From Sorangium aterium (GTDB lineage Bacteria > Myxococcota_A > Polyangia > Polyangiales > Polyangiaceae): a stretch of DNA of 64,000 nt. This document shows positions 36,414 to 53,851 of this stretch, in pieces. Position numbers and translations under genes: made by a program. The first letter of the stretch is position 1, and each line of letters begins with the position of its first letter. The stretch is from positions 248,001 through 312,000 of the forward strand of contig NZ_JAQNDK010000002.1 in assembly GCF_028368935.1 (NCBI RefSeq), written 5' to 3'. Under the pieces are notes generated by a model. The model was not told the DNA's origin. It did no database searches and worked only from the letters and a program-made list of their open reading frames with translations.

Positions 36414-39400
36414 CTACCCGATGGAGCGCAGCAGATGGTCGAGCGCCCGGCGCTCCTCCGCGTCGGTGACCGACTTCAGCGCCCGGTTGACCTCGCCGAC
36501 GGCGGCCGCCGCCAGCAGCGCGACGGCCGCCGGGTCGGGCGCCCCGCGCGCGCGCAGCCACGCGAGCGCCTCGTGCTCGGTGTTGACGACGATGAGGCTC
36601 CGGCTCGCCTCGTAACGGATCGGCCGCCCTGAGCGGCCCTCGACGACGGCGCGCACCGGGGCCCCCTCGAGGTTCATCCGGGCGATGGCCTCGTGGATCG
36701 CGGCCGCGAGCGGGCTCCCGGTCGCCGCCTCCTGCCCCTCGGGCGCGGCGCCGGGCAGCGGCGCCGCCTCGCCGCCGAGCAGGCCGAGCACGCTGCGCCA
36801 CAGCGCGAGGGCCCAGGCCCGCGCGCCGCTCGAGTCGGGCGGCGCCTCGGCGGCGGGCGCCTCCGCGCCGCGCGTGGCCGCGTGCGCCTCCGCGCCGTGG
36901 GCGCCCGCGGCGGGAAGGCCCGCGCCCGCGGCGGGAGGGCCCGTCCCGGAGGGAGGCCCGATCTCCACCGCGGTCGCCCCGGCCGGGGCGGGCGTCGCCG
37001 CGAGGGCGCCGAGCTCGCGCAGCGCGCCGGGGGCGGCGCGGTGGCGCAGCACCTCGACGAGCGGCGAGCCGTCGTCGAGTAGAACGAAGGGCGGCGTGCC
37101 GTCCGGGAAATCGCCGTCCGCGCTCCCTCGGCGATCGGAGATCCACAGGCAGCCGCTCGCCGCGAGCTCGGCGCGGACCGCCGCCGGGCCGACGCTCTCG
37201 CCGGCGGCGGTCCGCGCCGTGAGCTTGCCGCCGGAGAGGCGGCCGAGCAGGTGCAAGTTCCACAGGTACGGCGCCGCGGCCGCCTGGTCCGAGAGCTCGG
37301 CGGCCATGGACGCCGCGGCCTCCATGGCAAGCTCCGCGATGGCGTCCCAGCGCGCCTCGCGCAGCGGCCACACGAGGAGCCTCCCCTCGACCGGCGCGAG
37401 CTCGACCACGCCGGTCACCCCGGACCCCACGCCCGCCCCGCAGCGCAGCGCGACGGGGGTGAAGCCGCCGTCGCTCCCTTCGCCACCGCCGCCGCCACCG
37501 CCGCCGCCACCGCCGCCGCCACCGCCGCCGCCACCGCCGCCGCCACCGCCGCCGCCACCGCCGCCGCCTCCGCGGCCCTCGCCGAGGATCGCCGCGGAGG
37601 GCGCGGCAACCAGCACCCGGGGCGCACGCGGCCACCGCGCGGGCAGCCAGAGCGCGCCGGTCACGAACAGCGGCCGGGGCCAGGTGGTGGCGACGTCGAT
37701 CCACCGCGTCGCGAGCGCGTCGTCGGGCGGCGCGAGCCGGGCGCGCAGCCACCGCGCGGCGGCGTCGCGCACCGCCTGCCGGAGCCGCGACGCGTCCCCG
37801 CGGGCCTTGAGCCCGTCGAAGGCGCGGTTCGGCTCGAGCGCGTCGTCGTTGACGGCCGCGCACAGCGGCCACCCATCGCCAGCGTCGAGCGCGCAGAGCG
37901 GGCGGCGCCCGACGTGCACCGCGATGCCCGCCGCCCCGGCGTGCTCCGGGGCGAGCAGGCCGATCTCGCCGCGCGCGGGCGGCGCGCCCTCCTGCGCTCC
38001 GGCCGGCTGCTCGAAGGGCAGGATCGCGAAGCACGCGGCGCGCGCGGCCGCGTCGAGGCCGACGGCGGCGAGCGGCGGCGCCGTGACGCGCTCCTCGGCC
38101 GCGCGATCGCGCGTGACAGCGTCGGTGATGTCCCTGATGAGCACGGCGGTCGCGAGCTGCAGCCGCTCGGGCCTGCTCAGCGCGAGGACCGGCCGCTCGT
38201 AGCGCTGCGTCGGGTAGGGCGGCGGCGTCGAGGTGCACAGCCACTCGGCGCGCGGGTCGCGCCGGAGGTCGTCGAGCGAGAAGAGGTTCCCCTCGATGTC
38301 GTGGAAGAGCTGCGCGCGCGCCGCCTCCGCGACGACGCGCTTGCCCTGGGCCAGCGTCTTCAGGACCGCGCGGCGCGCGTGGCTCCGCGCGAACGGCGGC
38401 AGCTCGTCGAAGCGCGGCGCAAGCGAGATCAGGTGGCGGCCCGCGGCCTTCGCGAGGCGCGTCAGGATCGCGCGCGAGGCGTCCCTCGATGGGTCCGCGG
38501 CGCCGGCGCGCACGAGGAGGCGGAGCGGGATCGGCAGCTCCACCTCCACGCGCCGCTCCGCGCCGTCGGGGCCGACGAAGCGGGCGTCCGATACCGGCCC
38601 CTCGACGATCTCGATCTCGCCTTCGAGCCCCTGCATGCCGAGCGCGGCGGCGCTCACCCGCAGCAGCGGGTGCGAGGGCGCGCCCGTCAGCGCGAGCGGC
38701 GCGCGCGGCGGGCCCGCGGCGCCGCGCGGGCCATGCTCCTGCTGCGCCCCGCCGGCGAGGGCGCGGCGCTCCTGCGCGGCGGCGGCGCGCTGCCGCCGCG
38801 CCGGCACCCCGCTCTGCGCCAGGAGGGCGCGCCCGCCGGCCCACCGCATCAGGGCCGCGCGCTCTCGCGGGTCGCGGGCGACGAGGGGGTGCCAGGAGAG
38901 CGTCTCGAAGCCGGGCGCCGCGTCGAGCACCGGGATCGGCGCGGGCGCTGGGTGGGTCTCGTCGAGGGCCTCGAGCGAGCACGCGACCTCCTGGCCGCGC
39001 GCGTCGAGCATCACGAGCAGCGGCAGGCGCCGGATGCGGGCGGCGAGGTCGCTCTGGGCGGCCCTGAGGGGCGCGCTTCCGAGCGCCCGCGCGCGCGCCT
39101 CGAGCGCCTGCGCGCTGTCGAGCAGGTAGGCGCTCACGCGGGCGTCCGGCCTGCCGCGCTCGCGGAGCGGATCGCCCCGCAGGCCGAGCCGCGCGCGCGC
39201 CGCGGCGTCGCCCTCCAGCGCGGCCACGAGCGCCTCGCAGAGCGCGCGCTCGACCGCGTGGACGACGACGTCGTTGCGCGGCGACAGGAGGCCGTCCCAG
39301 CCGCTGTTCGGCGCCGCCGTGTCGTCGTCGATCGCGATGGCGGCGGGGCCGAGCAGCGGCGCGGCCTCCAGGGTGGCGAGGGGCCGCGACGCGTGGTGCC

Positions 39401-41837
39401 ACGCCTCCACCATCGCGTCGCTCGGCGTGGCGAGCGCGAGGAAGCCGGGGCCGCTGACCTCGAGGACCGGCGCGCCGGCGGGGAGCGCCGCGAGCCGCTC
39501 CAGCGACGCCGCGAGCGCGCGCCGCCGCGCCGGCCCCCGCGCCGCGAGCTCGTCCTCGGTGAAGAGCCCCGGCGCGTAGGGGACGAGCTCGCGCTCCGGG
39601 AGCGCGGCGGCGAGCCAGTCGAGCTCGCGCTGCGAGGCGGCGAGCACCGTCCTCCGGTCGGCCGCGCGCCCCCGCGCCTCGGGCGGCGCCGTGCAGAGGC
39701 TGCGCGTCGGCCGGGAGAGCGCGGAGAGTCCCTTCAGGCTCACGAACCACCCGGCCGCGAGCGTGGGCCAGATCCGCGCGTCCAGGAGGCCTTCGAAGCT
39801 CGCGGGCGCGAGGCCGTCGTCCGGGGCCGGCGCCGCGCCGCCTCCGCGCCCGGGGCTGCCGTCCGCGGCGCCGAGGCGCGGCGGCGCGCAGAACACCGCG
39901 CCGATCGCGGCGCGCAGCGCGGGCCTCACGCGCGCGAGCTCGCTCTCGGGCGCAGGCGCGGGCGTCGTCGAGCGCGGGCCTCGCCGAGCGTCCCTCGGGC
40001 CGAAGAGCCGCCTCGCCTCGCGGTCGGCCGCGGCGAGCGCGACCTTCAGCGCATGGCGGACGGCGCGCCAGAAGCGCGCGTCGCGCTCGACCCCGTCGTA
40101 CGCGAACCGCGGCCGCACGCGCCCCTTCCACGCGAGCGCGATCTCGACGGGCAAGGGGGCGGCGGCGGGATCGAGCTCCACGGTCTCGAGGTGCCGCCCC
40201 TCCACGAACACCCGGACCTCGGCGCCGCGGGGGGGCTCGCGAGCGTCGGCGAAGACCGCGAGCTCGCCGCGGAGGCCGGCGAGCGGCCCTTCGTCCACCT
40301 GGAAGGCGTCGCGGAACGCGTGCTCCGGGGAGGGCGGCACGACGGGATCGCCGGTCGCGTGCAGGAGGAACGCCCTGCGGCGCTCGGCGCCGAGCTTCAC
40401 TTGCTCGATCATGGCCTCGGCGTCGGCGAGCGGGAGCCCAGCGAGCGCGCGCTCGACGAGACCCCCCGGGCTCCAGACCACGTCGCCGGCCCAGGGGGCG
40501 AGCTCCTTCGGGAGCTTCGCGTCGCCGCGGAAGAGGAAGAGCCGCGGCGCATCGTGCGCGTCGAGCGCCGCGAGCGACGTCGGTCGCCCGCGCCCGTCGC
40601 GGAGCAGCGGGAGCTCGCGCACGGCCTGCGCCTCGGCGGGCAGCTCGGCGCCGGTCCGCGCCGCCCCGGTCGCGACGCAGGCGAAGGCCGCGAGCGCGTT
40701 CGCGAGCCGGCCGCGGTCCTCGTCGACGACGAGCGCGCCGTCGGGGACCGCGCCCTCGCCGCACACGAGCGCGGCGAGGGCCTTGATGGCGTCGAGCAGC
40801 GCGCCGGCCGCCGCCTCGCGGAGCCGCGTGCGGAGGGGCGCGTCCTCGCGCAGCGCCGAGCGCGACGCGTTGGTGGGCAGCGCGTCCGCGTCGACGACGA
40901 CGCGGACCGGGAGCTCGACGCCCTGGTAGGGCGCCGAGGGGAACCGCGGGGCGAAGCTCCAGCGCTCGCGGACGAGCCGCACGCCGTGCTCGAGGTAGTC
41001 GACGGCGGGGAGGCCGGAGGGGAGGGGAGTGGGGAGGGGCGCGGAGACGGGCGCGGCGAGGGGGCGCGAGCGGGGCGCCGAGCTGGCCGGCCCTGCTGGG
41101 GGCTCGGGGGGCGCGACGATCTCCAGCGCGGCTCGGCGCGCGCCGCGCACATGGAACGGCACGCGCACGAGCACTGCGACGTCGCTGCTCGGGAGAGCGC
41201 GGCGCAGCGGCTCGCCGGCGAGCGCGATCGGGACCGGGAAATCGCCGGTGGCCGCGGCGAGGTGCGCGAGCTCGGGCGGGCTATCGCCCGTGATCGCCCG
41301 GCGGAGCACCGACCAGCCGAGCCTCCGCCGCACCTCGATGCGCAGGCCGGCCGCGGGCATCCCGGGCGGCCTCGGGACCTCCTCGCAGGCGGGGCCGGCG
41401 GCCGGCGCGGGGGCCTCGGCGGGCGCCTCGAGCAGGGCGGGCGTGAAGCGCACGCGCGTGCAGGTCGTGCCTCGGGCCTCGCCGGACGGCCCGCGGCCCG
41501 TCGTGAGCAGGTCGACGCGCGCCGGGCGCAGCCCGAGCGCCGCGTTCACGCCGAGGGCGAGCAGGCGGAGCCTCCGGGACGCGGCGTCGGGCGCGGCGTT
41601 GAGCACGTGGTCGAGGAGGCGCGCCAGCGCGGGCCCGTCGGGCGGCTCTCCGTCGAAGGTCACGACGACGTCGTCGGCGTCGTAGCGGAGATCGATCTGC
41701 GTCGCGCCCCCGGCCGCGGCGGCGCGGACGAGCTCGAGCAGGTAGAGGTCCAGGTCGACGAGCAGGTGCTCCCTGAGCTTCTGGACGGCGCGGCGGGCAT
41801 CGACGCGGATCGCGCCGCGGGCGACGACCCGGCTCAC
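36414..41837 (-). CDS. Giant protein with degenerate HSP90-like N-domain and three HSP90-middle-like repeats
   Basis: The 1807-residue protein starts at GTG 41837, which overlaps the stop of the ATPase gene (GTGA). Its N-terminus resembles a GHKL fold (LYLLELVRAAAAGGATQIDL ... VTFDGE ... LALGVNAALGL), but the Mg-binding Asn and the DxGxG glycines are lost, so ATP binding is doubtful. A motif like the HSP90 middle segment occurs three times about 500 residues apart: VDADALPTNASRSALRED (about 310), DDDTAAPNSGWDGLLSPRND (about 833) and VNDDALEPNRAFDGLKARGD (about 1326), each followed by a helix of the RxAVxxAxxxxL type. About 29 consecutive glycines sit near residue 1440. The C-terminal 350 residues are Ala/Pro-rich and helical. 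No membrane span or signal is seen. I know no named family with this layout; sacsin is the nearest architectural analogue. Confidence 0.8.
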   Translation of the reverse strand: MSRVVARGAIRVDARRAVQKLREHLLVDLDLYLLELVRAAAAGGATQIDLRYDADDVVVTFDGEPPDGPALARLLDHVLNAAPDAASRRLRLLALGVNAALGLRPARVDLLTTGRGPSGEARGTTCTRVRFTPALLEAPAEAPAPAAGPACEEVPRPPGMPAAGLRIEVRRRLGWSVLRRAITGDSPPELAHLAAATGDFPVPIALAGEPLRRALPSSDVAVLVRVPFHVRGARRAALEIVAPPEPPAGPASSAPRSRPLAAPVSAPLPTPLPSGLPAVDYLEHGVRLVRERWSFAPRFPSAPYQGVELPVRVVVDADALPTNASRSALREDAPLRTRLREAAAGALLDAIKALAALVCGEGAVPDGALVVDEDRGRLANALAAFACVATGAARTGAELPAEAQAVRELPLLRDGRGRPTSLAALDAHDAPRLFLFRGDAKLPKELAPWAGDVVWSPGGLVERALAGLPLADAEAMIEQVKLGAERRRAFLLHATGDPVVPPSPEHAFRDAFQVDEGPLAGLRGELAVFADAREPPRGAEVRVFVEGRHLETVELDPAAAPLPVEIALAWKGRVRPRFAYDGVERDARFWRAVRHALKVALAAADREARRLFGPRDARRGPRSTTPAPAPESELARVRPALRAAIGAVFCAPPRLGAADGSPGRGGGAAPAPDDGLAPASFEGLLDARIWPTLAAGWFVSLKGLSALSRPTRSLCTAPPEARGRAADRRTVLAASQRELDWLAAALPERELVPYAPGLFTEDELAARGPARRRALAASLERLAALPAGAPVLEVSGPGFLALATPSDAMVEAWHHASRPLATLEAAPLLGPAAIAIDDDTAAPNSGWDGLLSPRNDVVVHAVERALCEALVAALEGDAAARARLGLRGDPLRERGRPDARVSAYLLDSAQALEARARALGSAPLRAAQSDLAARIRRLPLLVMLDARGQEVACSLEALDETHPAPAPIPVLDAAPGFETLSWHPLVARDPRERAALMRWAGGRALLAQSGVPARRQRAAAAQERRALAGGAQQEHGPRGAAGPPRAPLALTGAPSHPLLRVSAAALGMQGLEGEIEIVEGPVSDARFVGPDGAERRVEVELPIPLRLLVRAGAADPSRDASRAILTRLAKAAGRHLISLAPRFDELPPFARSHARRAVLKTLAQGKRVVAEAARAQLFHDIEGNLFSLDDLRRDPRAEWLCTSTPPPYPTQRYERPVLALSRPERLQLATAVLIRDITDAVTRDRAAEERVTAPPLAAVGLDAAARAACFAILPFEQPAGAQEGAPPARGEIGLLAPEHAGAAGIAVHVGRRPLCALDAGDGWPLCAAVNDDALEPNRAFDGLKARGDASRLRQAVRDAAARWLRARLAPPDDALATRWIDVATTWPRPLFVTGALWLPARWPRAPRVLVAAPSAAILGEGRGGGGGGGGGGGGGGGGGGGGGGGGGGGGGGEGSDGGFTPVALRCGAGVGSGVTGVVELAPVEGRLLVWPLREARWDAIAELAMEAAASMAAELSDQAAAAPYLWNLHLLGRLSGGKLTARTAAGESVGPAAVRAELAASGCLWISDRRGSADGDFPDGTPPFVLLDDGSPLVEVLRHRAAPGALRELGALAATPAPAGATAVEIGPPSGTGPPAAGAGLPAAGAHGAEAHAATRGAEAPAAEAPPDSSGARAWALALWRSVLGLLGGEAAPLPGAAPEGQEAATGSPLAAAIHEAIARMNLEGAPVRAVVEGRSGRPIRYEASRSLIVVNTEHEALAWLRARGAPDPAAVALLAAAAVGEVNRALKSVTDAEERRALDHLLRSIG
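37481..37575 (-). repeat. GC-rich 9-base microsatellite encoding a polyglycine run
   Basis: About ten copies of a 9-base unit (plus strand CCGCCGCCA) encode about 29 glycines inside the giant HSP90-partner protein. The unit length keeps the frame when copy number changes, so this tract is likely length-variable between strains and error-prone in assembly. Confidence 0.9.
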
Positions 41838-43639
41838 CGCGGGGACCCCCTTGGCGCGGGGCGCGGGCCGCCTGCGGGCGCCCGCTCGCCGCGCGCCGCG
41901 CCCGCGAGCGGCGGCGGGCTCGCCGAGAGGTCGAGGAGCCGGTCGCTGTCCTCGGGATCGAGCGGCCCCTTGGCCTCGACGAGCAGCGCGCGGGCGAGCA
42001 GGTTGCCGGCCGTCACCGCGTCGACGGCGGCCCGTCTGCGCGCGAGGGCCACGGTGTCGCTCTCGATGTTGAGGTAGAGGGCGTGCCCGGGCGGGAAGCG
42101 CGCCGCGCGGCGCACGACCTCGCGCGCCGCGTGGCAGCTCTGCTCGGGCCCGGCGCGCTCCCCGCTCCCGGGCAGGAGGAACCCGCTGCGCTGGCGGAGG
42201 GCGCCCTCGACCTGGCAGAGGCTCACCCGGGCGACCCCGTGCCGGGCGCGGGCGAGCGCGTCGGCGATCACCTGGAGGAGCGCGGCGTCGGCCGCGCGGG
42301 CGCGTTTCGGCTCCTCGCGCTCCTCGCGCACGAGCAGGTAGGCGGCGTGCGCCTTCTCGATGCGCGCCGCCGGGAAGCACCGCTTCAGCAGCGCCCTGGT
42401 CGCGCGGTGGTTGCACAGCACGACGGGCAGCCCGCCACGGGCCATGGCCGCGGTCAGCGCGTCGGATCGCCTGGCCACGAGCAGCGGCTCGCGCCCTGGC
42501 GCCAGCGCCCGGAGCCCCGCGCGGCACCGGTCGCCGGCGACGGGGCTCGCGAGCGGGAACGGGATCTCGTCCGGATCGAGCGCGGTCGGCGGCGACAGCG
42601 CCGCCTCCAGCATCGCCGCGTAGGTGGCGGCGCCCTCGGCCTCGCCGGCGGCTGCGGCTGCCGCGGCCTGCGGGAGGCGGGCGGCGAGCTCGCGCCGGAG
42701 CGGACCTTTGACGAGCTCGCGCACGCGCGCGATCGCCTCCCAGAAGGCGTCGTCGCGGCGCACGTTGTCGCGGCTCAGGGTGTGCTGGAGGTGGGGGCTC
42801 ATCACCTTGAACCGCACGCCCGAGAGCCCGCTGAAGAGCTCGTCCGCGGTCTCGAACAGGGTGAGCCCGCGGTTGTAGAAGCCGGCGAAGCTCTGGCCGT
42901 GCTCGCCGGCGGGGTCCCCGTCCCCGCTCGTGGGCCGTGCGAGGTGCTGAGCGCCGGCGGAGGGGCCGACGACGACGGTGGTCTCTTCCTCGACGGCGGT
43001 CACGGAGACGGGCGCTGCGATGGCGAGCGGGGAGTCGATCCGCAGGGCGCCCGTGCGGGAGCCGCCCTCGTGGTCGGCGATGCTGAGGGTGATCTCGCGA
43101 TCGGCGTGGCGGCACCAGCGGCGGAGCGCCGCCTGCGCGCGGCGCGCGTGCTCCACGAACGCTTCCCGGCCGAGCCGCTGGATCAGGGTCACGCGCGTGC
43201 CGCTGCCCTGGCGCGGTCCGGCGTCCTCGAGCTCGTAGCTCGTGTCGCTGTGCAGCCGGAGGAGCCATGCCTTCCCGTCGCGCCACGTTTCCACGTCGAC
43301 CTGCTGCGGCTGGAGGGCGAACACGGAGACGAAGCCGACGCCGTATTTACCGATCTTCGTCGCGTCGCCTTCCTTCGACGAGCTGAAGAGGGTGAGCAGC
43401 GGGCCCTCGATGTCCTCGCGGCTCATGCCGCACCCGTCGTCGGCGACCGAGGTGGCGCACGCGCCGGGCAGCGCCTCGACGCGCACGGCGATCTTCCGCG
43501 CGCCGGCGTCCATGCCGTTCTGCACGAGCTCGCGCAGGAAGGCGTACGGGTCGGCGAACTGCTGCACCATGTCGGCGACCGGGCCTGGCGGCGGCGGGGG
43601 CGCGGCGCGGTCCTCGCGAGAGGAGCGGTAGGGTGCCAT
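41834..43639 (-). CDS. HSP90-like (GHKL) ATPase
   Basis: The 601-residue protein opens with an HSP90-type nucleotide-binding domain: N-box FLRELVQNGMDAGARKIAV (about 34-52), G1 VADDGCGMSREDIEG (about 65-79) and the glycine-rich lid TKIGKYGVGFVSVFAL (about 93-108). A middle-like region contains HTLSRDNVRRDDAFWEAIA, similar to the HSP90 SRE segment. The C-terminal half has an alpha/beta part (PVVLCNHRATRALLKRC) unlike HtpG, and the HSP90 dimer domain is not evident. It is translationally coupled to the 1807-residue partner, so the two probably form a complex. An intact ATP site here and a degenerate one in the partner suggest an asymmetric ATPase. It is distinct from housekeeping HtpG. No regulatory gene is adjacent. 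Confidence 0.85.
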   Translation of the reverse strand: MAPYRSSREDRAAPPPPPGPVADMVQQFADPYAFLRELVQNGMDAGARKIAVRVEALPGACATSVADDGCGMSREDIEGPLLTLFSSSKEGDATKIGKYGVGFVSVFALQPQQVDVETWRDGKAWLLRLHSDTSYELEDAGPRQGSGTRVTLIQRLGREAFVEHARRAQAALRRWCRHADREITLSIADHEGGSRTGALRIDSPLAIAAPVSVTAVEEETTVVVGPSAGAQHLARPTSGDGDPAGEHGQSFAGFYNRGLTLFETADELFSGLSGVRFKVMSPHLQHTLSRDNVRRDDAFWEAIARVRELVKGPLRRELAARLPQAAAAAAAGEAEGAATYAAMLEAALSPPTALDPDEIPFPLASPVAGDRCRAGLRALAPGREPLLVARRSDALTAAMARGGLPVVLCNHRATRALLKRCFPAARIEKAHAAYLLVREEREEPKRARAADAALLQVIADALARARHGVARVSLCQVEGALRQRSGFLLPGSGERAGPEQSCHAAREVVRRAARFPPGHALYLNIESDTVALARRRAAVDAVTAGNLLARALLVEAKGPLDPEDSDRLLDLSASPPPLAGAARGERAPAGGPRPAPRGSPR

Positions 43640-43796: not shown

Positions 43797-44858
43797 TCAG
43801 GACATCAGGCCGAGTGCGGAGAGGGTGGCAGCCCAGAGCGGCCAGAGCGTGCGGTAGGGGTGGGTTGCCAGCAAGATGCCACCGTTCGGGAGGCGCCGGA
43901 CGTGGAACCGGGCGTGATCCACGAGGAAGTAGACGTGCTCGCCCGTCAATTTCACCCAGGTGAGGGACCCGCCGCCGCGGGTGAACGGCTCGCCGCGCGC
44001 CCTGGCCTGCACCGTCAGGTTGTGGATCTCCTCGGCGCGTGGCTCCGCGGCGCGCCACGCCTCGTCGGGCACATCGGCGGCGGCCACGAGCGCCTCGATC
44101 AGGGCGGAGCCCGGCATGGCCAGCGCCTTGAGGACGGTCTCGCGGGAGAGCGGGATCGAGCGCCCGCTCTTGTCTGTCGGAACCACGCGCGCCCCGGCCG
44201 GCGCGGCGTCGATACGCGCGTGCAGCGCCTCCAGCGACATGCCCGCGATCAACGAGACCTTCTCTTTGTCGTGGAGGCTGACCCACGACAGGGCCAGATC
44301 GCGCGCGATGTCGCGGGCGTCCGCGTTGTACGTCGCGCACATCGAGACCGGCGCGAGCCAGGTCCACGCGCTCGTGCAGCCGCCGGTCGAGACGCGCCTG
44401 CTCGCGTCGGGCGCGCAGAGGCGGAGCAGCAAGTCCTCGAGGTAGTCCAGAACGATGTGCCACGTGAGCTCGGCTTCCGCCTCCACGGAGCGCGGGCCGC
44501 TGCCCAGGGCGGGGTACAATTCCAGCGGGAGAATGTCCGCCGCGCTCGCAGGGACCATGTGGATGGGGCCCCGTGGCTTGAGACGTTCGCTCTTGCCGGT
44601 GAAGCAGCGATAGTGGCCATAGAATGAGCGCCGGTCGTCGAACTCCATGGCGAAGTAGGTTTCGGCGTCGGTGCGTCCGAAGTGGGCGCGGATCATCGCG
44701 ACCGCCTCGTCCACGAAGCTCACGGTGCGATCCACGTCGGAGCCCATCGTCACGCTGATATACATCCCTGGGATGACGAGCGCCGGCAGCGCCGCCGCGA
44801 ACGCGTCGACCCGCTCTGCCTCGTCACACCAGGCGAAGAAGTACGGCCCTGGTTTCAT
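43797..44858 (-). CDS. Candidate immunity protein (copy 2 of tandem pair)
   Basis: The 353-residue cytoplasmic protein begins MKPGPYFFAWCDEAERVDAF and ends FHVRRLPNGGILLATHPYRT...LSALGLMS. It is a clear paralogue of the next gene upstream: both share LLLRLCAPDASxRVxTGxCT, APVxMCATYNADARDIARDL and SRETVLKALA. The pair follows a polymorphic toxin gene, and unrelated long cytoplasmic partners duplicated after a toxin are typical of immunity genes. I do not recognise the family, so immunity is inferred from position. There are 29 bases between the copies. ATG 44858 is chosen because the longer frame upstream overlaps copy 1 without similarity. Confidence 0.7.
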   Translation of the reverse strand: MKPGPYFFAWCDEAERVDAFAAALPALVIPGMYISVTMGSDVDRTVSFVDEAVAMIRAHFGRTDAETYFAMEFDDRRSFYGHYRCFTGKSERLKPRGPIHMVPASAADILPLELYPALGSGPRSVEAEAELTWHIVLDYLEDLLLRLCAPDASRRVSTGGCTSAWTWLAPVSMCATYNADARDIARDLALSWVSLHDKEKVSLIAGMSLEALHARIDAAPAGARVVPTDKSGRSIPLSRETVLKALAMPGSALIEALVAAADVPDEAWRAAEPRAEEIHNLTVQARARGEPFTRGGGSLTWVKLTGEHVYFLVDHARFHVRRLPNGGILLATHPYRTLWPLWAATLSALGLMS

Positions 44859-44887
44859 CCTTGGTTCACCCTCATGAGGTTGCTGGG

Positions 44888-45940
44888 TCAGGGCATCAGG
44901 CCGAGCGAGAAGAGCGCGTCGACCCAGAGCGGCCAGAGCGAGCGGAACGGGTGGGTAGCCAGGATCACGCCGCCGCCCGCGAGGCGGCGCACGTGAAAAG
45001 GCGCGTGCTTTCGGAGGAAGCGGACGTGGGCACGCGTGTCCGTGTGCACCGGCCACGTGGGCGGGCCTTCGCCCGTCTCCGCGATCTGGCTCGTCAGCGC
45101 CAGGATCTCTCTCGCGCGCGGCTCGGCGGCGCGCCACGCCTCGTCGGGCGCCGCCGCGGCCTCGAGCGCCTCCAGCAGGGCGGAGGGCGGCGTTGCCAGC
45201 GCCTTGAGGACGGTCTCGCGGGAGAGGGAGTGCGCGCGCTCGCTTCCGCCCTTGAGCGGGACGCGCGCCCCGGCCGGCGCGGCGTCGACGCCCGCGTGGA
45301 GCGCTTCCAGACACAGGCCCGCATTGCGCGATATCATCTCCTTGTCGTGGCGCTGTAGCCACGAGAGGGCGAGATCGCGCGCGATGTCCCGCGCGTCCGC
45401 GTTGTACGTCGCGCACATGCGCACCGGCGCGATCCAGTCTCCCCCGTTCGTGCACGCGCCGGTGCGGACGCGGCCGCTCGCGTCCGGCGCGCAGAGGCGG
45501 AGCAGGAGGTCCTCGAGGTCGTCCCGGAGCAGGTGCCACGCGACCGCGGCCTCGGCCTCGATCGAGCGCGGGCCCCTGCCCCAGGCGAGCTCGAGGTAGG
45601 AGTAGAGGAAGCCTTCCTGGTCGCTCGTGGACATGTCGATGGGACCGGCCGAGATGTTACGGGCGGCCTCTTCCGTGTAACAGTAGCCGCTGCACGGGAA
45701 GATGCGCTTGGAGGCGCTCAACATTACGTCGAAGAGTGCTCCACCGGCAGGACCTTCGGCGAACTCGGTGCGGATCATCTCGACCGCCTCGTCCATAGAA
45801 GTCGTGTCGGTGAGGGTTCCGTCTTTCCGCACGCAGATAGGAAGCCGTGGGTCTACGAGCGCCGAGAGCGCCGCCAGGAACGCTTCGAGCGTCTCTGTCG
45901 CGTCACACCAGGCGAAGAAGGTCGGTCCTGATTCACTCAT
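44888..45940 (-). CDS. Candidate immunity protein (copy 1, coupled to toxin gene)
   Basis: The 350-residue protein begins MSESGPTFFAWCDATETLEAF and is paralogous over its whole length to the next gene. Its ATG lies inside the toxin stop region (ATGA overlap at 45937-45940), so the two are translationally coupled, as expected when an antidote must be made with the toxin. Conserved positions include LRLCAPDASGRVRTGACT, MCATYNADARDIARDLALSW and HAPFHVRRLAGGGVILATHP. There is no signal peptide, which fits protection against a cytoplasmic nuclease. Divergence is concentrated in the N-terminal third, a possible specificity region. Confidence 0.75.
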   Translation of the reverse strand: MSESGPTFFAWCDATETLEAFLAALSALVDPRLPICVRKDGTLTDTTSMDEAVEMIRTEFAEGPAGGALFDVMLSASKRIFPCSGYCYTEEAARNISAGPIDMSTSDQEGFLYSYLELAWGRGPRSIEAEAAVAWHLLRDDLEDLLLRLCAPDASGRVRTGACTNGGDWIAPVRMCATYNADARDIARDLALSWLQRHDKEMISRNAGLCLEALHAGVDAAPAGARVPLKGGSERAHSLSRETVLKALATPPSALLEALEAAAAPDEAWRAAEPRAREILALTSQIAETGEGPPTWPVHTDTRAHVRFLRKHAPFHVRRLAGGGVILATHPFRSLWPLWVDALFSLGLMP

Positions 45941-47994
45941 AGCTGGGTCACCTTGATGGGTCTGTTGAACCCGTTCAGGGGCTCCCTCTTGCCCTTCTTC
46001 ACATTGAAGAGGTACCCATCCTTGACGGTATAGGTATCTTCCGGCTTGAATTTCGCACCGCGCTTCATGATGAGCTCGACCTGCTCGACATCCCCGACGA
46101 CCCCCTCCTTCCGTAGCCCCTCCATCCCGTTCGACAGCTGCCTGACCACATCGTCTACTTTGACGGTGTTGCCCCCTTTCACTTCGCTCACGATGAGCTT
46201 CTGCCCGCGGGACACCGTCACGAAGTCAGGAGCCCTCCCGCCGGACATGCCGGGGAGCGACTCTTTTGGCATCTTGAGCATCTCGCGCACGCCCTCGTCG
46301 CCGACGCCGAGGCGCGCCCGCCCTTCGCGGGTCATGTGGCTGATCGCCGCCTTCTCGAAGGTGTTGAAGGCGGCTTCCGTGACGTGCCCCTTCAGGTTCT
46401 TGAACCCGCGGAGCCTCCATACCTCGAACCCCTCGACAACGACCTTATCGACTTTTGCGATCTCCCCGGCGATCCGGATCCCACGCGGCGGTAGCGCGCC
46501 GGCGGCAGCAACGCCGTGCCAGATGTGCCCGACCGCCCCGAGCCCGAACCCCAGCCCCGAGAAGATCCGCTCCTCATCGCTGAGCTCTCGCCCGGCCGGC
46601 AGGCACCACTCCTTGCCCGTCACGGCCTCGCACAGGTCGAGCGTCGGCCCGACCACGGGCACGAACCCCACCCCGATGCGCGTCGTCGCGTGCACCAGCG
46701 TCTGCATCACCTCGGCGTACGCCTCGAAGCCTTCGGCGACCGTCGACATCGCGCCCGCGAACGCGCTGATCGTCTGGTAGAGCTGCGTCTGCTCCAGGTC
46801 GAGCCCGCCCCCCGTCCACAGGTTGAGGTTGTCCTTCATCTGGTCCGCGAGCGCATCGAACCGTGGCTTCAGCACCGTGTCCACCTGCGCCCGCAGGTCG
46901 GCAGGCACGGGCGAGTCCTCGAACCAGTCCGACGCATCCATGAACTGCCGCACGAACCCGGTGATCCGGTTCTGCGCCTTCAGGAACGCGTTGGTCTCCG
47001 CGAGCGATACACCCATCCGGTCGCGCAGCGCGATCTCCAGCGCCGCGCTGTTGGCCCTCCACGCCCGCACGTTCGCCACGAAGTCCGCCCGGAGGACCAC
47101 CACCCGGCCGCTGACGTCCGCCTCCAGCGCCGCGAGCACCGCGTCCGCGTACGCCGCGTAGGGGTCCCTCCCCTCCTCGAACGCGCCGTCCACCTCGGAG
47201 ATGTCCGGCACCTCGACCCACGGCACCTCGCTCTCCCCGAGCGCGTACGCCTGCGGGTCGTCCGGGTCCCACCCCTCGGCGCGCGCGTCTTCCGTCGCCA
47301 GGTCCGCCACCTCGTCGGCCTGCGCGCCGAACTCGTCCATCAGCCGCGCGAGCTCGTCCTCGAGATCGCTGACGCTCTGCTTCAGGTCGTCGACGAGCTG
47401 CTCCATCGCCGTGCGCGTCGCCGGCGCGACCGCGTCCTCGTACCGGTCCAGGATCGCCTCGAGGTCGGTCCGCGAGATCTCGTCCAGCGGCCGGCTCACC
47501 AGGTCCTTCAGCTCGGTGTCGAGCTGCTGGAGCAGGTCCAGCTTTTCCGCCAGCTGGCCCACCGCCCGTGCGTTCGCCACGAGCGCCGCGCGCTCCTTGG
47601 TGATCTCGGCCAGCAAGACCTCGATGTCGCGCGCCAGCGTCGGGTTGATCTCCGCGAGGCTCAGGTCGAGCGTCGTGTCGCCGTGGAACGCCGTCCCGCT
47701 GCGCCGCACATTGAATAGCGGCTTGTTCAGCCCGAGCGGCTCCGAGACGAGGTGCACCACGTCGTGCGCGTCGGTGCACCGGTCCTCGCCGGCGGAGTTC
47801 TGCACGTGGAAGTGGAAGTCGTTCGCTCCAATCTGGAGCAGCACCGAGTCGAACTCCGTCTCCGCCCTGTTGGTAGCCGAGCCGTCGGCGTGCTCGACCA
47901 GCGCGCCGGGGACCTCGTAGGTGGTCAGCGGCGTGTCGTTCACGCTGAAGAAGTCATGCCCGACGAAGAGGGGCGCCGCGCACGGCGGCGTCAT
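45937..47994 (-). CDS. Polymorphic toxin with pre-toxin region and C-terminal nuclease-like domain
   Basis: The 685-residue protein has a beta-rich N-terminus (PLFVGHDFFSVNDTPLTTYE), then about 250 residues of acidic coiled coil (LDLLQQLDTELKDLVSRPLD, DDLKQSVSDLEDELARLMDE). A PT-TG-like pre-toxin segment follows (GFVPVVGPTLDLCEAVTGKE ... ERIFSGLGFGLGAVGHIWHG, about 435-490). The C-terminal domain contains APDFVTVSRGQKLIVSEVKGG (about 590-608), the D...ExK arrangement of PD-(D/E)xK nucleases. It has no signal peptide, and no VgrG, PAAR or TcdB segment is fused, so the export route is unknown. It overlaps the upstream lipoprotein gene by 41 bases and the downstream immunity candidate by 4. DNA or RNA cleavage is inferred. 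Confidence 0.78.
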   Translation of the reverse strand: MTPPCAAPLFVGHDFFSVNDTPLTTYEVPGALVEHADGSATNRAETEFDSVLLQIGANDFHFHVQNSAGEDRCTDAHDVVHLVSEPLGLNKPLFNVRRSGTAFHGDTTLDLSLAEINPTLARDIEVLLAEITKERAALVANARAVGQLAEKLDLLQQLDTELKDLVSRPLDEISRTDLEAILDRYEDAVAPATRTAMEQLVDDLKQSVSDLEDELARLMDEFGAQADEVADLATEDARAEGWDPDDPQAYALGESEVPWVEVPDISEVDGAFEEGRDPYAAYADAVLAALEADVSGRVVVLRADFVANVRAWRANSAALEIALRDRMGVSLAETNAFLKAQNRITGFVRQFMDASDWFEDSPVPADLRAQVDTVLKPRFDALADQMKDNLNLWTGGGLDLEQTQLYQTISAFAGAMSTVAEGFEAYAEVMQTLVHATTRIGVGFVPVVGPTLDLCEAVTGKEWCLPAGRELSDEERIFSGLGFGLGAVGHIWHGVAAAGALPPRGIRIAGEIAKVDKVVVEGFEVWRLRGFKNLKGHVTEAAFNTFEKAAISHMTREGRARLGVGDEGVREMLKMPKESLPGMSGGRAPDFVTVSRGQKLIVSEVKGGNTVKVDDVVRQLSNGMEGLRKEGVVGDVEQVELIMKRGAKFKPEDTYTVKDGYLFNVKKGKREPLNGFNRPIKVTQL

Positions 47995-49408
47995 ACGCGA
48001 TCGCGGCGCCCTTCACGTCCCCCGCGTCGAGCCTCGCCTGAGCCGCGTCGAGCTCCGCCGCGGCCATGCCCTTCTCCCGCAGCGCCGCGAGACCCGCCGC
48101 GATCTTCTGCGGCACCCCCGTCCTGAGCTCGGCCTCCGCGGCGTCGAACCTTCCTCGAAGCTCCGCGCACCCGGCCTCGCGCCAGGACGACCCGGCCGCC
48201 TCGCAGAGCGGTCGCAGCTGCGCCAACGCCAGGAGCTCCCCGCACCGCTCGGCCAAGAGCGGCAGCCCGAGCTTCTCGCTCACCGGCGGCGCCGCCGACA
48301 GGGCCGCGACCTGCGCGCGCGCCCGCTCCCCGAAGGCGTCCGACGCCTTGCGGGTCCGCGCGCCTGCGACGGCCTCGCGCGCCCCTTCGTCCATCTGCAG
48401 CACGCGGAGCGCCTGCCGGCGCAGCGCGATGCCGCCGAGCAGCGCCGCCGCGGTCGCGTCGCTCCGGGCGACGCGACCCTTCCCGTAACCCAGCATCGCG
48501 TTCAGCGAGCGCAGCGCGCCCGACGTCATGTCCGGCAGCACCGCGCCGTGCGTCGCGAGCAGCTCCCTGTGCGGCGCCATCGCCTCATCGAAGGAGGCCG
48601 CGAAGACCTGGAGCGTCGCCGACCACCTCAGGATCTCCGCGGTGAGCTCGCCGGGTGAGCGGCTCGCCTCGCGCGCCGTCGCGAGCACCGCCTGCTCCAC
48701 GCCGTCGAGGCCGTCGATGTCCGACCGCGACGCCTGCTTCGAGAGCGTCGCGTACGCCGCCGTCTCCGCCGCCTCGGTCGCGCGGTACGCGGCGAAGCGC
48801 GCCGCGACGCCCGCGTATTTCGATCGCAGCGGCGCGACGTCGCTCCGGGCCTGGTCGAAGACCGCCTGCACGGCCGCCATGGCCTGCCTGTCGGCCGCGA
48901 GCGCGGCGGCGAGCGGCTCCCTCTCGGCGCTGGCCTTGTCGAGCATCGCCGCCGTGAAGTTGCCGGCCGCATCGACCGGCGCCTCCGCAAGCAGCGCCCT
49001 CTGGCGGTCCCTCGCCTCGTCGAGCAGCCGCGCGAGCTTGCCCGCGAGCGTTGCCCGCAGCGACTCGGCGTTCCTCGCGTCGTCGCGCACGTACGCGATC
49101 GCCTCGTCGATGTGGCCGAACCAGACGCCGAGCGAGGTTTCGCTCGCGACGATCTCCTCCGGCGTCTTGTTGTTCGGCCAGGTGGCCCACACCTCGATGG
49201 GCAGCGCGCCGTCCTTCTCGGCCTGGGCCCACGCGGCGGCCGGCCCCTGATTCTCGCCCACGCAGTGCTCCTCGCCGCCCGCCGCCGCCGCGCAGAAGCT
49301 CCCGAACGTGTCGTCCCCGAACTTCCACAAGCACCCGGCCGCAGTCGCGCCGAACGCCAGGGCGGCCACGGCCACCGCGACGACCTTTATCTGTCGCCTC
49401 GTTCCCAT
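47954..49408 (-). CDS. Coiled-coil lipoprotein at the head of the toxin operon
   Basis: The 484-residue protein has a lipoprotein leader (VVAVAVAALAFGATAAGC, lipobox A-A-G-C), a short Cys segment (FGSFCAAAAGGEEHC) and a long Ala/Arg-rich helical body with heptad-like pattern (LARLLDEARDRQRALLAEAP, LAADRQAMAAVQAVFDQARS). No enzyme motif is seen. ATG 49408 is preferred over 49414 because GGAGG lies 8 bases upstream of it. The 3' end overlaps the toxin start by 41 bases, so both are made from one transcript; it may help present or export the toxin. Confidence 0.75.
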   Translation of the reverse strand: MGTRRQIKVVAVAVAALAFGATAAGCLWKFGDDTFGSFCAAAAGGEEHCVGENQGPAAAWAQAEKDGALPIEVWATWPNNKTPEEIVASETSLGVWFGHIDEAIAYVRDDARNAESLRATLAGKLARLLDEARDRQRALLAEAPVDAAGNFTAAMLDKASAEREPLAAALAADRQAMAAVQAVFDQARSDVAPLRSKYAGVAARFAAYRATEAAETAAYATLSKQASRSDIDGLDGVEQAVLATAREASRSPGELTAEILRWSATLQVFAASFDEAMAPHRELLATHGAVLPDMTSGALRSLNAMLGYGKGRVARSDATAAALLGGIALRRQALRVLQMDEGAREAVAGARTRKASDAFGERARAQVAALSAAPPVSEKLGLPLLAERCGELLALAQLRPLCEAAGSSWREAGCAELRGRFDAAEAELRTGVPQKIAAGLAALREKGMAAAELDAAQARLDAGDVKGAAIAYDAAVRGAPLRRA

Positions 49409-49663
49409 GCTCATCGCCTCCTCCCCGCGATTTTTCTCGCCAGGGCACGCTCGTCCGCGCGTCCTCCAGAAGCAAGCGTCCCCACCAAAGCGCCAGGACA
49501 TTGCTCGGCCCTGGATCGCGCCCTCGTGCGCCATGTCGTCCGTCGTCAACACACGGACCGTCGCCGGACCACGAGGTGTCCTCCGGTGCATCCGACGGGA
49601 GTCCGTGGTGATGCCAGGGCCGTCCACCGAAGCGCAGGGGAAGCAGGGAGGTGTGGCGCTCGA

Positions 49664-49832
49664 CGCAGCAGCCGGTCCACGGGCGACGAGACCAGGGCGA
49701 GACGACACAGCAGCCGGTCCACAAGCGACGAGACCAGGGCGAGACGACACAGCAGCCGGTCCACAAGCGACGAGCCCGGGGCGAGACGACGCTGGAGCCG
49801 CTCCACAGGCGACGAGCCCGGGGCGAGACGAC
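49664..49832. repeat. Four tandem copies of a 42-bp repeat upstream of the toxin operon
   Basis: The segment AGCCGGTCCAC recurs at 49670, 49712, 49754 and (with one change) 49796, an exact 42-base period; the remainder of each unit (GCGACGAGACCAGGGCGAGA) is also conserved. The block lies about 255 bases before the lipoprotein start. On the minus strand it is open and would encode a 14-residue repeat (CGPAAVSSRPGLVA), but without signal or start it is more likely non-coding. Flanking parts of 49409-50110 show no gene I can support. Confidence 0.85.
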
Positions 49833-50110
49833 GTGCACATAAAGCAGTTCCTGCGGACCGGCCCGCGGGGTCGAGGTGGACGCCGGCGAGCGCGCGATCG
49901 CGGCACCTCGCGGGCTTCTGCTCAGCCACGCCTGGTTGGTCGGCTTCGACGGGGCCGCCGCCTGCGCGGCGGAAGGTGGCCGACTTGAGGAAAGGGAAGC
50001 GTCCGGACAGGCAGGCCCCTACCGCCGCGCCCCGCGACAGGGCAGGCTGATCTCGGCATCACGCGGCATTACACTCCCGGTCGAAGCCGCATAGACAAGC
50101 GAGTTCATCC

Positions 50111-50455
50111 ATGGAATCCAGCCCGAACAACGATCTCTATGTTGCCGTTCTCCTCTACGAGTCTTGGTCACCGGACCCATCGTACACACCCATGTGCGAA
50201 GAGTGCTTCGCGCTGGTGCGCGCCGAAGGTGAGGAGCAGGCACGCGCGCGCGCCGAGCAACACAGCCGTGCGCATGAAACATGCTTCAGCAATGTTTTAG
50301 GGCAGGAGATTCACTGGAAGCTGAAGCACGTTGTGGATGTAAGCCGTGTTCTTTCAGACGCTCTTGATGACGGCGCGGACATCTACGCGCGGCACTTCAA
50401 GAGCTATGAGGCTTACCACGCGTTCGAGCTATTGCTCGGCGGCAGTGTCGACTGA
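50111..50455 (+). CDS. DUF4288-like small protein
   Basis: The 114-residue protein reads NDLYVAVLLYESWSPDPSYT, PMCEECFALVRAEGEEQARA, HWKLKHVVDVSRVL, DIYARHFKSYEAYHAFELLL, which fits the DUF4288 pattern of a small alpha/beta protein. DUF4288 members often sit near toxin or contact-dependent systems, and some are thought to be immunity-related, but no function is proven. It is less GC-rich than its neighbours and stands on the strand opposite to the toxin operon. ATG 50111 starts the domain directly. Confidence 0.65.
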   Translation: MESSPNNDLYVAVLLYESWSPDPSYTPMCEECFALVRAEGEEQARARAEQHSRAHETCFSNVLGQEIHWKLKHVVDVSRVLSDALDDGADIYARHFKSYEAYHAFELLLGGSVD

Positions 50456-51020
50456 CACATGAATTGGAAGGGGTGGAGCGCGCAGGGCCGTCATTGTCGG
50501 GATTGTGCTCTCAAGCCTAGTGGGGATTCTTGCGCCGATCCCGCCCTTGTCGAGCAGTTCGAGACGGTAGACGCCGACCTGAGGGCGCGAGCGTCTGCTG
50601 GGGTCACCTCGCGATGATGGTCTCCCTCGGTCACTACGCCCGCTCCGCCGCGGGGCGTCCCCTGGGTCCTGATGACATGCCGGTCCCTCGTCCAGAGCGA
50701 CCCAGCCCATGGCCTCGTGGTCACGAGCCTGTCGTGAGGCGCTCCCGGAATCCCCTGGACCGCACCTCTCACCACCTCTCCCGCTCCGGTCCACGCAAGC
50801 AGCGCACCGCCGTCCTGCGCCCACCTCGCCGCAGCTCATTCAGCGGCGGGCCAGCTCACCGTCTTGCCGCGCAGCGCCCGCCACGCTAGCGCTAGCGCCC
50901 CCACGAAGTGGCGCGTTTCTCCCGGCTCAATCGCACAACGGCCGCCAGGGAGCTCTTTCGCAGCCTGCTCCGTCCACGTTATACTTATCCTTCTCTGCTC
51001 TCTGAGGAGTCGTGAGACTG
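50456..51020. other. Intergenic region, 565 bases, no gene supported
   Basis: Overlapping frames occur on both strands (such as minus 50429-50839), but none has a recognisable domain or a convincing start. An octamer-type palindrome GCTAGCGCTAGCGC occurs near 50885-50898. Base composition drops just ahead of the PAS-STAS gene, where its promoter (CGTTATACTTATCC near 50978) may lie. Confidence 0.45.
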
Positions 51021-52223
51021 ATGGAATCTGCCTCCAGTGTGTTGCTCGGCGAGCTCTTCGCCCGTTCTGCCGATCTGCTCTTCATCGCCTCGGCCGACGG
51101 AGCGTTGCTCCACGGGAGCGGCGGGCTGCGCGAGGCGCTGGGCCCCGGGGTCGAGGGGGGCGCGCTCCTCGCGGATCTCGCGCACCCGGACGATCGCGCC
51201 GCGCTCTCGGCGGCCTGGTCGACAGTCCTTCAGAGGGACGAGCCGGTCTCGTTCAGCGTGCGCCTGCGCGACGGCGGCGGCGCCTACCGGCCGCTGTCGT
51301 GCAGCGTCAGCCGGTCATCCGACCGAAGCGCCGTCCTCGGCACGCTCCGCCCCGCGCCCGCGGCCGCCGCCCCGGTGACCGAGGACGAGCTGAGCAAGCT
51401 CCGGCTCAAGGCGCGCCTCCTCGACGGCCTCGTCGAGCACGTGGATCCCTTGACGATATGGGCGCTCGACCGCGACGGGATCTACGTCTATCACGACGGC
51501 AAGTCGACCGCGAAGGCCGGATTGACACGGGGGCAGCACGTCGGGCACAGCGTGTACGACCTCTATGGGGCCACCCCGGAGGCCGCCGCCGACATGCGGC
51601 AATGGTACGACGGCCAGGTGCGCCGCGGTCGCGGCGAGGCGCACGGCGCCGACTGGGACACCTGGCTCATCCCGCTCCGCAGCGAGCCCGGCGGCCCCAT
51701 CGACGGCGTGCTCGGGGTCTCGCTCGACGTGTCGGACTCCAGGCTCGTCGAGAAGGAGCTGCGCATCCAGCTCGACCAGATCGCGGCGCAGCAGAAGGTG
51801 ATCCGCGATCTCTCGACGCCGATCATCGAGGTCTGGGACGGCGTGCTCACGCTCCCCATGGTCGGCACGGTCGACAGCGTCCGCACCGCGGAGGTCATGG
51901 ACAGCCTGCTCGCGCAGATCGTCGAGAAGCGGGCGCGCTTCGCCATCCTCGACCTCACCGGCGTCGAGGTCGTCGACACCCGGGTCGCGAGCCACCTCAT
52001 CCAGCTCATCACCGCCATCCGCCTCCTCGGCGCGGACGGCATCGTCGCCGGCATCAAGCCGACGGTCGCCCAGACCATGGTCGCGCTCGGCCTCGACCTC
52101 TCCCAGCTCAACACGCAACGCAACCTGCGCGCCGCGCTCAACTACGCCATCCGGGCCATGACGAGCGCCCAGGGCGCCTCCCCCGCCGCGGGCCCGGTGC
52201 CCGGCAAGAAGCCAGCTCCCTGA
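51021..52223 (+). CDS. PAS-STAS regulator (RsbR-like) with intact Thr
   Basis: The 400-residue protein has two PAS-like regions (LLFIASADGALLHGSGG, VDPLTIWALDRDGIYVYHDG ... DGVLGVSLDVSDSRLV), a short linker helix and a STAS domain (TPIIEVWDGVLTLPMVGTVD, FAILDLTGVEVVDTRVASHL). The V-D-T motif keeps the phosphorylatable residue that is lost in the paralogue at 17174. It is likely a cytoplasmic stressosome-type signalling protein. ATG 51021 has GAGGAG 11 bases upstream; GTG 51012 is an alternative. No kinase of the RsbT type is adjacent, so its partner is encoded elsewhere. Confidence 0.85.
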   Translation: MESASSVLLGELFARSADLLFIASADGALLHGSGGLREALGPGVEGGALLADLAHPDDRAALSAAWSTVLQRDEPVSFSVRLRDGGGAYRPLSCSVSRSSDRSAVLGTLRPAPAAAAPVTEDELSKLRLKARLLDGLVEHVDPLTIWALDRDGIYVYHDGKSTAKAGLTRGQHVGHSVYDLYGATPEAAADMRQWYDGQVRRGRGEAHGADWDTWLIPLRSEPGGPIDGVLGVSLDVSDSRLVEKELRIQLDQIAAQQKVIRDLSTPIIEVWDGVLTLPMVGTVDSVRTAEVMDSLLAQIVEKRARFAILDLTGVEVVDTRVASHLIQLITAIRLLGADGIVAGIKPTVAQTMVALGLDLSQLNTQRNLRAALNYAIRAMTSAQGASPAAGPVPGKKPAP

Positions 52224-52287
52224 GCGGCGTCATCGCCCGCCACCCCGGGACCGCGCGCGGCGCGCCCGTTCACGAGATCGAGGCCGC

Positions 52288-53736: not shown

Positions 53737-53851
53737 CGTCGCAGCTCCATCCTTCGTGCCTTGGGAGAAGATCTCCTGCCTTGGGGCGCCTCGCGCGCGG
53801 GCGCCCCTCGCGCTCGTCGAGGTGGGCTCGGCGAGCTACCGTTTGCGCGAG

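Follow-up and report, generated by a model that had tools for sequence, protein, structure and literature searches.

A pair of overlapping genes on the minus strand of a 64,000-nucleotide stretch of the 13.5-Mb Sorangium aterium genome (contig NZ_JAQNDK010000002.1, positions 248,001 to 312,000; this whole stretch is the window) encodes a 601-aa ATPase and a 1807-aa partner protein, and we find that the first is a divergent form of HSP90 and that the second, to which it is coupled, is an ATP-dead relative of HSP90 whose middle domain has multiplied. The two genes likely encode the unequal protomers of an HSP90-type machine, in which a live ATPase would work with an ATP-dead partner carrying the multiplied middle domains. 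An earlier note, made from the sequence alone, had described a GTGA overlap between the genes, an intact set of GHKL N, G1 and lid motifs in the 601-aa protein and a decayed set in the partner; all three observations held, the first by direct reading, since the partner GTG start lies on the ATPase TGA stop. The tandem repeats in the partner and the HSP90 middle and C-terminal domains are features beyond that note.

The domain features of HSP90 are present in the ATPase: a GHKL N-domain, a middle domain with its Arg, and a C-terminal domain. The protein matched Pfam HATPase_c_3 with an expectation value (E) of 1.7e-14, was also above the cut-offs for HATPase_c and NCBIfam P_loop_sacsin, and aligned over residues 12-562 of 601 with a profile of 27 Myxococcota HtpG proteins (E 1.1e-26; hhalign E-values here and below are single-comparison values). 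Its C-terminus matched the HtpG C-terminal profile (E 1.2e-5) with a score of 35.4, compared with 14.5 or less in 60 column shuffles. The best fold match in VIA-align of an AlphaFold2 model built from 53 sequences (predicted local distance difference test [pLDDT] 88.4, predicted template modelling score [pTM] 0.85) was HSP90 (Z 20.9, root-mean-square deviation [rmsd] 13.8, 461 aligned residues, model 15-574 to HSP90 24-693); domain angles probably account for the high rmsd. MORC2 came next (Z 17.7), and families missing from the VIA lists are not counted as excluded. In an alignment of 55 ATPases, the residues that we take to be the catalytic Glu, the Mg-binding Asn, the adenine-binding Asp, and the DxGxG and lid glycines were kept in every sequence, as was R290 of the middle domain. 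The features of the ATPase gene are as follows.

41834-43639, minus strand: ATPase protomer gene, ATG start, predicted 601-aa divergent HSP90 with N-terminal, middle and C-terminal domains (N-M-C)
43040-43597, minus strand: GHKL N-domain, residues ∼15-200 by the model, with N, G1 and lid motifs intact; motif residues E37, N41, D67, G71, G97, G100 and G102, invariant in 55 of 55 sequences
42320-43012, minus strand: putative HSP90-type middle domain, residues ∼210-440, by fold match, with catalytic-loop Arg R290 in 55 of 55 sequences
41921-42307, minus strand: putative HSP90-type C-terminal (dimerisation) domain, residues ∼445-573, by profile match to the HtpG C-terminus

From the profiles and the model, we conclude that the ATPase is a divergent HSP90 relative of N-M-C layout that lies outside the curated HSP90/HtpG family, and dimerisation is predicted. 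Neither protein of the pair matched PF00183 in the Pfam scan, even at E 10. In hidden Markov model searches of the kind that the earlier note had recommended, the ATPase fell below the cut-offs of the NCBIfam HtpG model (46.3; cut-off 371), of PRK14083, named ‘HSP90 family protein’ (45.6; cut-off 455), and, just, of Pfam SACS (31.0; cut-off 32.8), but was above that of the sacsin-type N-domain NF047352 (53.6; cut-off 50). The claim that the proteins belong to no family with a name therefore stands for the partner, which had no match in Pfam, NCBIfam or PADLOC, but not for the ATPase. A canonical HtpG is also encoded elsewhere in the same genome (G000:C2:1173801-1175033).

Profile-profile comparison gave a pointer to the ancestry of the partner. 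Residues 18-410 of the ATPase aligned with residues 15-457 of the partner (E 3.7e-14, probability 98), whereas the match of the partner to the HtpG profile was weaker (E 2.9e-4), and this closer match to the ATPase points to an origin of the partner within the ATPase lineage. The degenerate GHKL copy proposed in the earlier note is thus beyond chance, and the two-gene pair recurs in this layout throughout the phylum. Structure prediction agreed: in a model of partner residues 1-1150 (40 sequences, pLDDT 83.9, pTM 0.55), the GHKL/HSP90 N-plus-middle fold is present, with residues 3-471 matching HSP90B (Z 16.9, rmsd 6.1, 376 aligned residues) above MORC3 (Z 14.7), GyrB (14.0) and topoisomerase VI (13.9). 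A phmmer search of the partner against the PDB placed its best rows on a glycine run. This pure 30-residue run (37482-37571, minus strand) arises from a GCC/GGC-type trinucleotide repeat and is absent in the orthologues compared (L039, L042, L046 and L050); the same kind of repeat is the source of most of 53 DNA matches within the genome. The features of the partner gene are as follows.

36414-41837, minus strand: partner gene, GTG start, putative 1807-aa pseudo-HSP90 with tandem middle domains; the open frame extends further upstream of the GTG
41834-41837, minus strand: GTGA, the 4-bp overlap of the partner GTG start with the ATPase TGA stop, read in the sequence
41193-41837, minus strand: degenerate GHKL N-domain, residues 1-215, by profiles and model; Glu35 kept, Asn, Asp and lid Gly lost
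40353-41183, minus strand: predicted middle domain M1, residues ∼219-495, by profiles and model, with the loop LPTNASRS (R326)
39480-40331, minus strand: predicted middle-domain repeat M2, residues ∼503-786, by self profile match (E 1e-19) and model, with the same order of elements
38718-39479, minus strand: predicted middle-domain repeat M3, residues ∼787-1040, by self profile match (E 2e-20) and model
38052-38663, minus strand: predicted middle-domain repeat M4, residues ∼1059-1262, by self match (E 3e-12), its first half modelled with low to middling confidence
37734-38042, minus strand: probable fifth repeat M5, first half, residues ∼1266-1368, by self match (E 1e-3) and as the end of longer self matches
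36438-36620, minus strand: putative C-terminal motif resembling the HSP90 dimerisation domain, residues ∼1740-1800, by matches to the HtpG and ATPase C-termini

Comparison of the partner profile with itself gave strong off-diagonal matches, with residues 277-869 aligning to 809-1362 (E 2e-20), 219-1140 to 503-1368 (E 1e-19 to 3e-19), 275-608 to 1081-1368 (E 3e-12) and 219-355 to 1266-1368 (E 1e-3). The model showed the corresponding architecture, five strands, one long helix and then a small alpha-beta part in an order that was kept, in units at ∼222-490, 506-783 and 792-1027, and again for the first half of a unit at 1059-1143 with lower confidence. These data indicate that the middle domain is present in tandem in four to five copies, the fifth (M5) being likely from the profile matches. 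The last ∼60 residues matched the C-termini of HtpG and of the ATPase (E 6e-4 each), with scores of 29.7 and 31.4, where 60 column shuffles of each gave 17.3 and 12.8 at most; in each of the three C-terminal comparisons, the resemblance exceeded all 60 shuffles and the reversed profile. A stretch of this type was also located close to the end in 9 of 14 shorter partners (E 0.02 or lower), was weak in one that is cut by a contig end, and was absent in four, these 14 being drawn from two alignments and hence not independent. The partner C-terminus thus appears to resemble the HSP90 dimerisation domain, on weaker evidence than that for the other domains.

Loss of the ATP site in the partner is systematic and one-sided. 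At aligned positions, all 55 ATPases carried the Mg-Asn, the adenine-Asp and the first lid Gly and none of the 64 partners carried any of the three, whereas the catalytic-Glu position was still Glu in 61 of the 64. The 41 close partners retained this Glu and the middle-domain-loop Arg in every case (41/41 for both), with none keeping the Asn, the Asp or the first lid Gly. The 23 that are distant or cut retained the Glu in 20 and the Arg in 3, and again none had any of the other three residues. We conclude from these alignments that the nucleotide-binding residues examined have been lost throughout the partners. We dropped the proposal that Glu35 and Arg326 form a joint conserved core of the partners, because the Arg was not retained in the distant ones.

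One explanation for such losses, together with the long glycine run, is that the partner is an ATPase copy in decay as a pseudogene. However, complete frames of ∼740-2030 aa are kept across the phylum, nearly always beside the ATPase, and E35 and R326 are invariant across one set of 40 partners. This conservation rules out both a pseudogene and a chance open reading frame (ORF), and the chance that the partner is decaying is vanishingly small. Another possibility is that the pair forms a DNA clamp like MORC or type II topoisomerases instead of a protein chaperone, as might be read from the MORC2 match of the ATPase and the MORC3, GyrB and topoisomerase VI matches of the partner. We regard this as very unlikely: HSP90 scored higher for both proteins, covering N, M and C of the ATPase and more of the partner, the match of the ATPase to the HtpG profile is nearly full length, and the Pfam scan gave no DNA-binding domain match.

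The two genes are tightly coupled across Myxococcota. A search of 59 relatives with the ATPase gave a match at 1e-5 in 27, many only to other GHKL proteins, and we retrieved 18 clear orthologues, in addition to that of the window, to compare their loci. The partner lay directly downstream of the ATPase at 16 of these 18 loci, the other two ATPases being at a contig end, and the 4-bp overlap was found in 14 of the 16 further pairs (starts chosen by rule). We then surveyed 377 Myxococcota genomes with a profile of the N-terminal 353 residues of the partner (E 1e-4) and with the ATPase profile (E 1e-30), scoring per genome at most five candidates for the partner and three for the ATPase. Matches to the partner profile occurred in 85 genomes and to the ATPase profile in 83, such that 78 genomes had both, 7 the partner only, 5 the ATPase only and 287 neither (Fisher p 8e-66, relatedness ignored). 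In 77 of the 78 genomes with both, the coordinates placed the two matches within ∼3 kb on one contig and one strand; in the exception (G229) they lie on different contigs, and another genome (G269) has two weak matches only. Three of the seven partner-only genomes (G069, G077 and G085) reflect canonical HtpG, picked at the same coordinates by the M1 part of the partner profile (E 1e-5 to 6e-5), a cross-match that speaks for the HSP90 reading of the partner. In a fourth (G055), part of an ATPase sits at the edge of a contig (L116), the match in a fifth (G216) is on a short contig (L126), and G045 and G154 stand as counted.

Searching outward from 40 partners (L104-L143) gave the same picture, with an adjoining ATPase at 37 loci by the first profile and at L143 by the second; L126 is the short contig, and at L130 there was no ATPase within the 20 kb fetched. 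Spacing in the 40 pairs separated by <400 bp ranged from −22 to +63 bp and was −4 in 23 of them; L125 had a wider spacing by the start rule. Complete partners ranged from 741 to 2030 aa, and the copy numbers of middle domains in the short ones are guessed by length alone. Copy number also varied at the level of genes: L129 has an ATPase and two partners, L137 an ATPase and three partners, L135 three partners and then one ATPase, and L128 two separate pairs. A canonical HtpG match was present in 249 of the 377 genomes, and because 63 of the 78 pair genomes also had HtpG (15 did not), the pair mostly comes on top of HtpG instead of standing in for it. Inheritance largely tracks bacterial families. 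On a tree of 53 of the 55 ATPases (the two without a family code were left out), the 13 family labels need 14 changes, where the least is 12 and the shuffled mean is 31.6 (0 of 200 shuffles as low), and family f1 (20 sequences) forms one side of a branch with a Shimodaira–Hasegawa-like approximate likelihood ratio (SH-aLRT) support of 100. Some deep duplication or transfer is possible, since f16 needs three changes and f5, f28 and f32 need two. Pairwise distances of ATPases and of partners at 36 loci were correlated (r 0.967, a value reached in 0 of 2000 permutations).

Gene coupling, joint occurrence and the disappearance of the ATP site on one side only together strongly suggest an asymmetric assembly, in support of the earlier note's proposal of an asymmetric ATPase assembly, although the contact between the two proteins is inferred. 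Neither of the outcomes that the note had named as refuting arose: the partner model does contain a GHKL fold, and homologues of the two genes are neighbours in almost all genomes with both. In HSP90, the C-terminal domains join two protomers, ATP closes the N-domains, and the middle domains bind clients. We hold it to be quite likely that the ATPase and the partner form a heterodimer with the partner arm as client platform. In such a machine, the 601-aa protein would be the sole ATP-using protomer, and the 1807-aa partner, of common ancestry, would no longer bind nucleotide and would have expanded its middle domain to a four-to-five-copy arm, with the GHKL head retained in dead form and the C-terminus still like that of HSP90. 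The two might pair through their C-terminal domains, as in HSP90 homodimers; ATP bound to the live head would close it onto the dead head; and a client protein could be held by the array of middle domains, so that a single ATP site would drive remodelling of whatever the long passive arm holds. Where a lineage has several partners to one ATPase, these may act as interchangeable arms. Of this picture, the computation shows homology, domain layout, loss of the site and co-occurrence, whereas ATP use, contact, closure, client binding and a role of chaperone type are predicted from them. The chances seem about even that this represents an obligate heterodimeric HSP90 with a client-binding arm of variable length and, in some bacteria, several interchangeable arms per motor.

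Several observations weigh against this reading. The heterodimer rests on inference, and a live head facing a dead head on a long arm may misfit the canonical HSP90 clamp. The C-terminal match of the partner is modest (E 6e-4) and sequence-based, in a region outside the model; the pTM of 0.55 means that the mutual arrangement of partner domains is not fixed by the model; and M4 and M5 are less well supported than M1-M3. The catalytic-loop Arg, present in all 41 close partners, is present in 3 of the 23 distant or cut ones, and short distant partners are nearly without repeats in self comparison (best E 4e-4, most >0.02). One partner (L130:6990-11705) has no ATPase match in 20 kb, although its genome (G261) has other pairs, and at L135 the ATPase comes after three partners. 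Lastly, a correlation of r 0.97 is expected for any vertically inherited neighbours and alone is no proof of contact. The near absence of repeats in the short distant partners and the one partner that stands alone slightly lower our confidence in the full mechanism.

We also considered that the ATPase might be a self-sufficient HSP90-like homodimer, with the partner as a co-chaperone or regulator that docks via its dead head and replaces no protomer. The ATPase does have a complete N-M-C of its own, two to three partners per ATPase in some lineages mean that the stoichiometry need not be 1:1, and 5 of the 377 genomes had an ATPase match without a partner match. However, the partner has kept the HSP90 layout including the HSP90-like C-terminus, which would be needless for a docking factor, and three of the five ATPase-only genomes hold frames of ∼980-1010 aa that may belong to another family, which makes this alternative rather unlikely. 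These single frames (in G283, G391 and G291) matched the ATPase profile at E 1e-32 to 1e-40 and had no partner match; they are perhaps another HSP90-like family.

The earlier note had hinted at a link to conflict systems, in which case the pair would be an anti-phage or conflict system built on a GHKL/sacsin-like ATPase, with the partner as sensor or effector scaffold. ParaMORC and sacsin-type modules are discussed in conflict contexts in PMC3710099, and PADLOC models for TmtA, MzaB and a type II restriction enzyme (REase_II) match the ATPase, but on its N-domain only: the matches are limited to the GHKL stretch, with no full-length match to a known anti-phage system, and neither protein has a nuclease or toxin domain match in the Pfam, NCBIfam and PADLOC scans. 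To assess the neighbourhood, we scanned the nearest genes, two to either side of the pair, at 41 loci (75 of 80 and 71 of 77). By PADLOC, the neighbours included, as raw counts, one type I methyltransferase, two Pycsar-cyclase matches, two mad2 or mad3 and one TIR. PADLOC matches were single or double among the best 25 of 69 and 25 of 38 families, a list that also holds many models of one kinase family, and no Pfam or PADLOC family occurred more than twice among the matches listed for these 146 neighbours. The tree labels, close to their minimum number of changes, also argue against a defence system. No partner relative was found in viral contigs by a pattern scan (0 of 347 stretches), the ATPase had no match in 50,697 phage records and one partial match among plasmids (21% of the query, 30% identity), and the 24 loci of the viral collection that match the GHKL part of the ATPase include none with a partner match. 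In that collection, one contig (L176:4794-10462) carries two neighbouring ORFs that overlap, each with a match to the ATPase profile (43 and 65 bits). Because there was no shared or clearly defence-rich neighbourhood and no phage copy was found, a defence role is disfavoured and in our view improbable, and the hinted link is unsupported by the neighbours and by the viral, phage and plasmid collections.

Returning to the asymmetric HSP90-type machine, we asked how it compares with known systems. MutL-alpha (MLH1-PMS2) is a GHKL heterodimer with an ATP site and a DNA-repair C-terminal domain in each protomer. In its mode of working, it shares with the pair the use of two unequal GHKL protomers, but the fold matches of the pair favour HSP90. 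HtpG/HSP90 (PF00183) is similar in the N-M-C homology of the ATPase, all ATP residues examined, the middle-domain Arg and the C-terminal domain, and in the N-plus-middle fold and HSP90-like C-terminus of the partner; it differs in that the pair consists of two genes, one of them ATP-dead with tandem middle domains, whereas HSP90 is termed homodimeric in PMC5550277. Divergent HSP90 paralogues (hsp90B and hsp90C) exist in bacteria, as a section of PMC3708813 describes; that section contains no dead partner or tandem middle domains, and the ATPase is far under the PRK14083 cut-off. Sacsin, whose N-domain model P_loop_sacsin the ATPase N-domain passes, has three N regions of Hsp90 type, behind each of which comes a region resembling the middle domain (PMC9880540), in one giant chain that also carries DnaJ and HEPN domains (PMC3710099). 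In the pair, only the middle domain repeats, within a separate dead protein, and neither protein has DnaJ or HEPN domains in the Pfam and NCBIfam scans. We found no description of such a pair in the literature searched, and absence there is no proof.

How the two ATP sites of HSP90 cooperate is not settled, and PMC5550277 describes their seeming lack of cooperativity as puzzling. If our reading is true, a naturally single-sited machine would allow HSP90 site cooperation to be tested without engineered heterodimers, the tandem middle domains would be a natural dissection of client binding, and partners of ∼740 to 2030 aa may supply a series of arm lengths. The pair would be an additional chaperone-like system in Myxococcota, for which extra protein-remodelling capacity is plausible given their large genomes and complex life styles.

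The region upstream of the pair (43797-55669) contains a VgrG gene (52288-53736), a DUF2169 gene (53852-55669) and uncharacterised ORFs, one of which (45937-47994) has a weak, sub-cut-off pre-toxin TG match, and it has the look of a cargo region for type VI secretion. VgrG and a STAS/PAS gene recur at locus L036, where queries with the ORFs between these genes and the pair had no match. We dropped a functional link between the pair and VgrG, because the VgrG query matched near the pair in L036 only, of 18 loci searched. Within the same region, ARAGORN called a tRNA-Pro(cgg) at 48418-48500 (minus strand) inside a predicted ORF (47954-49375), and one of these two calls is probably wrong.

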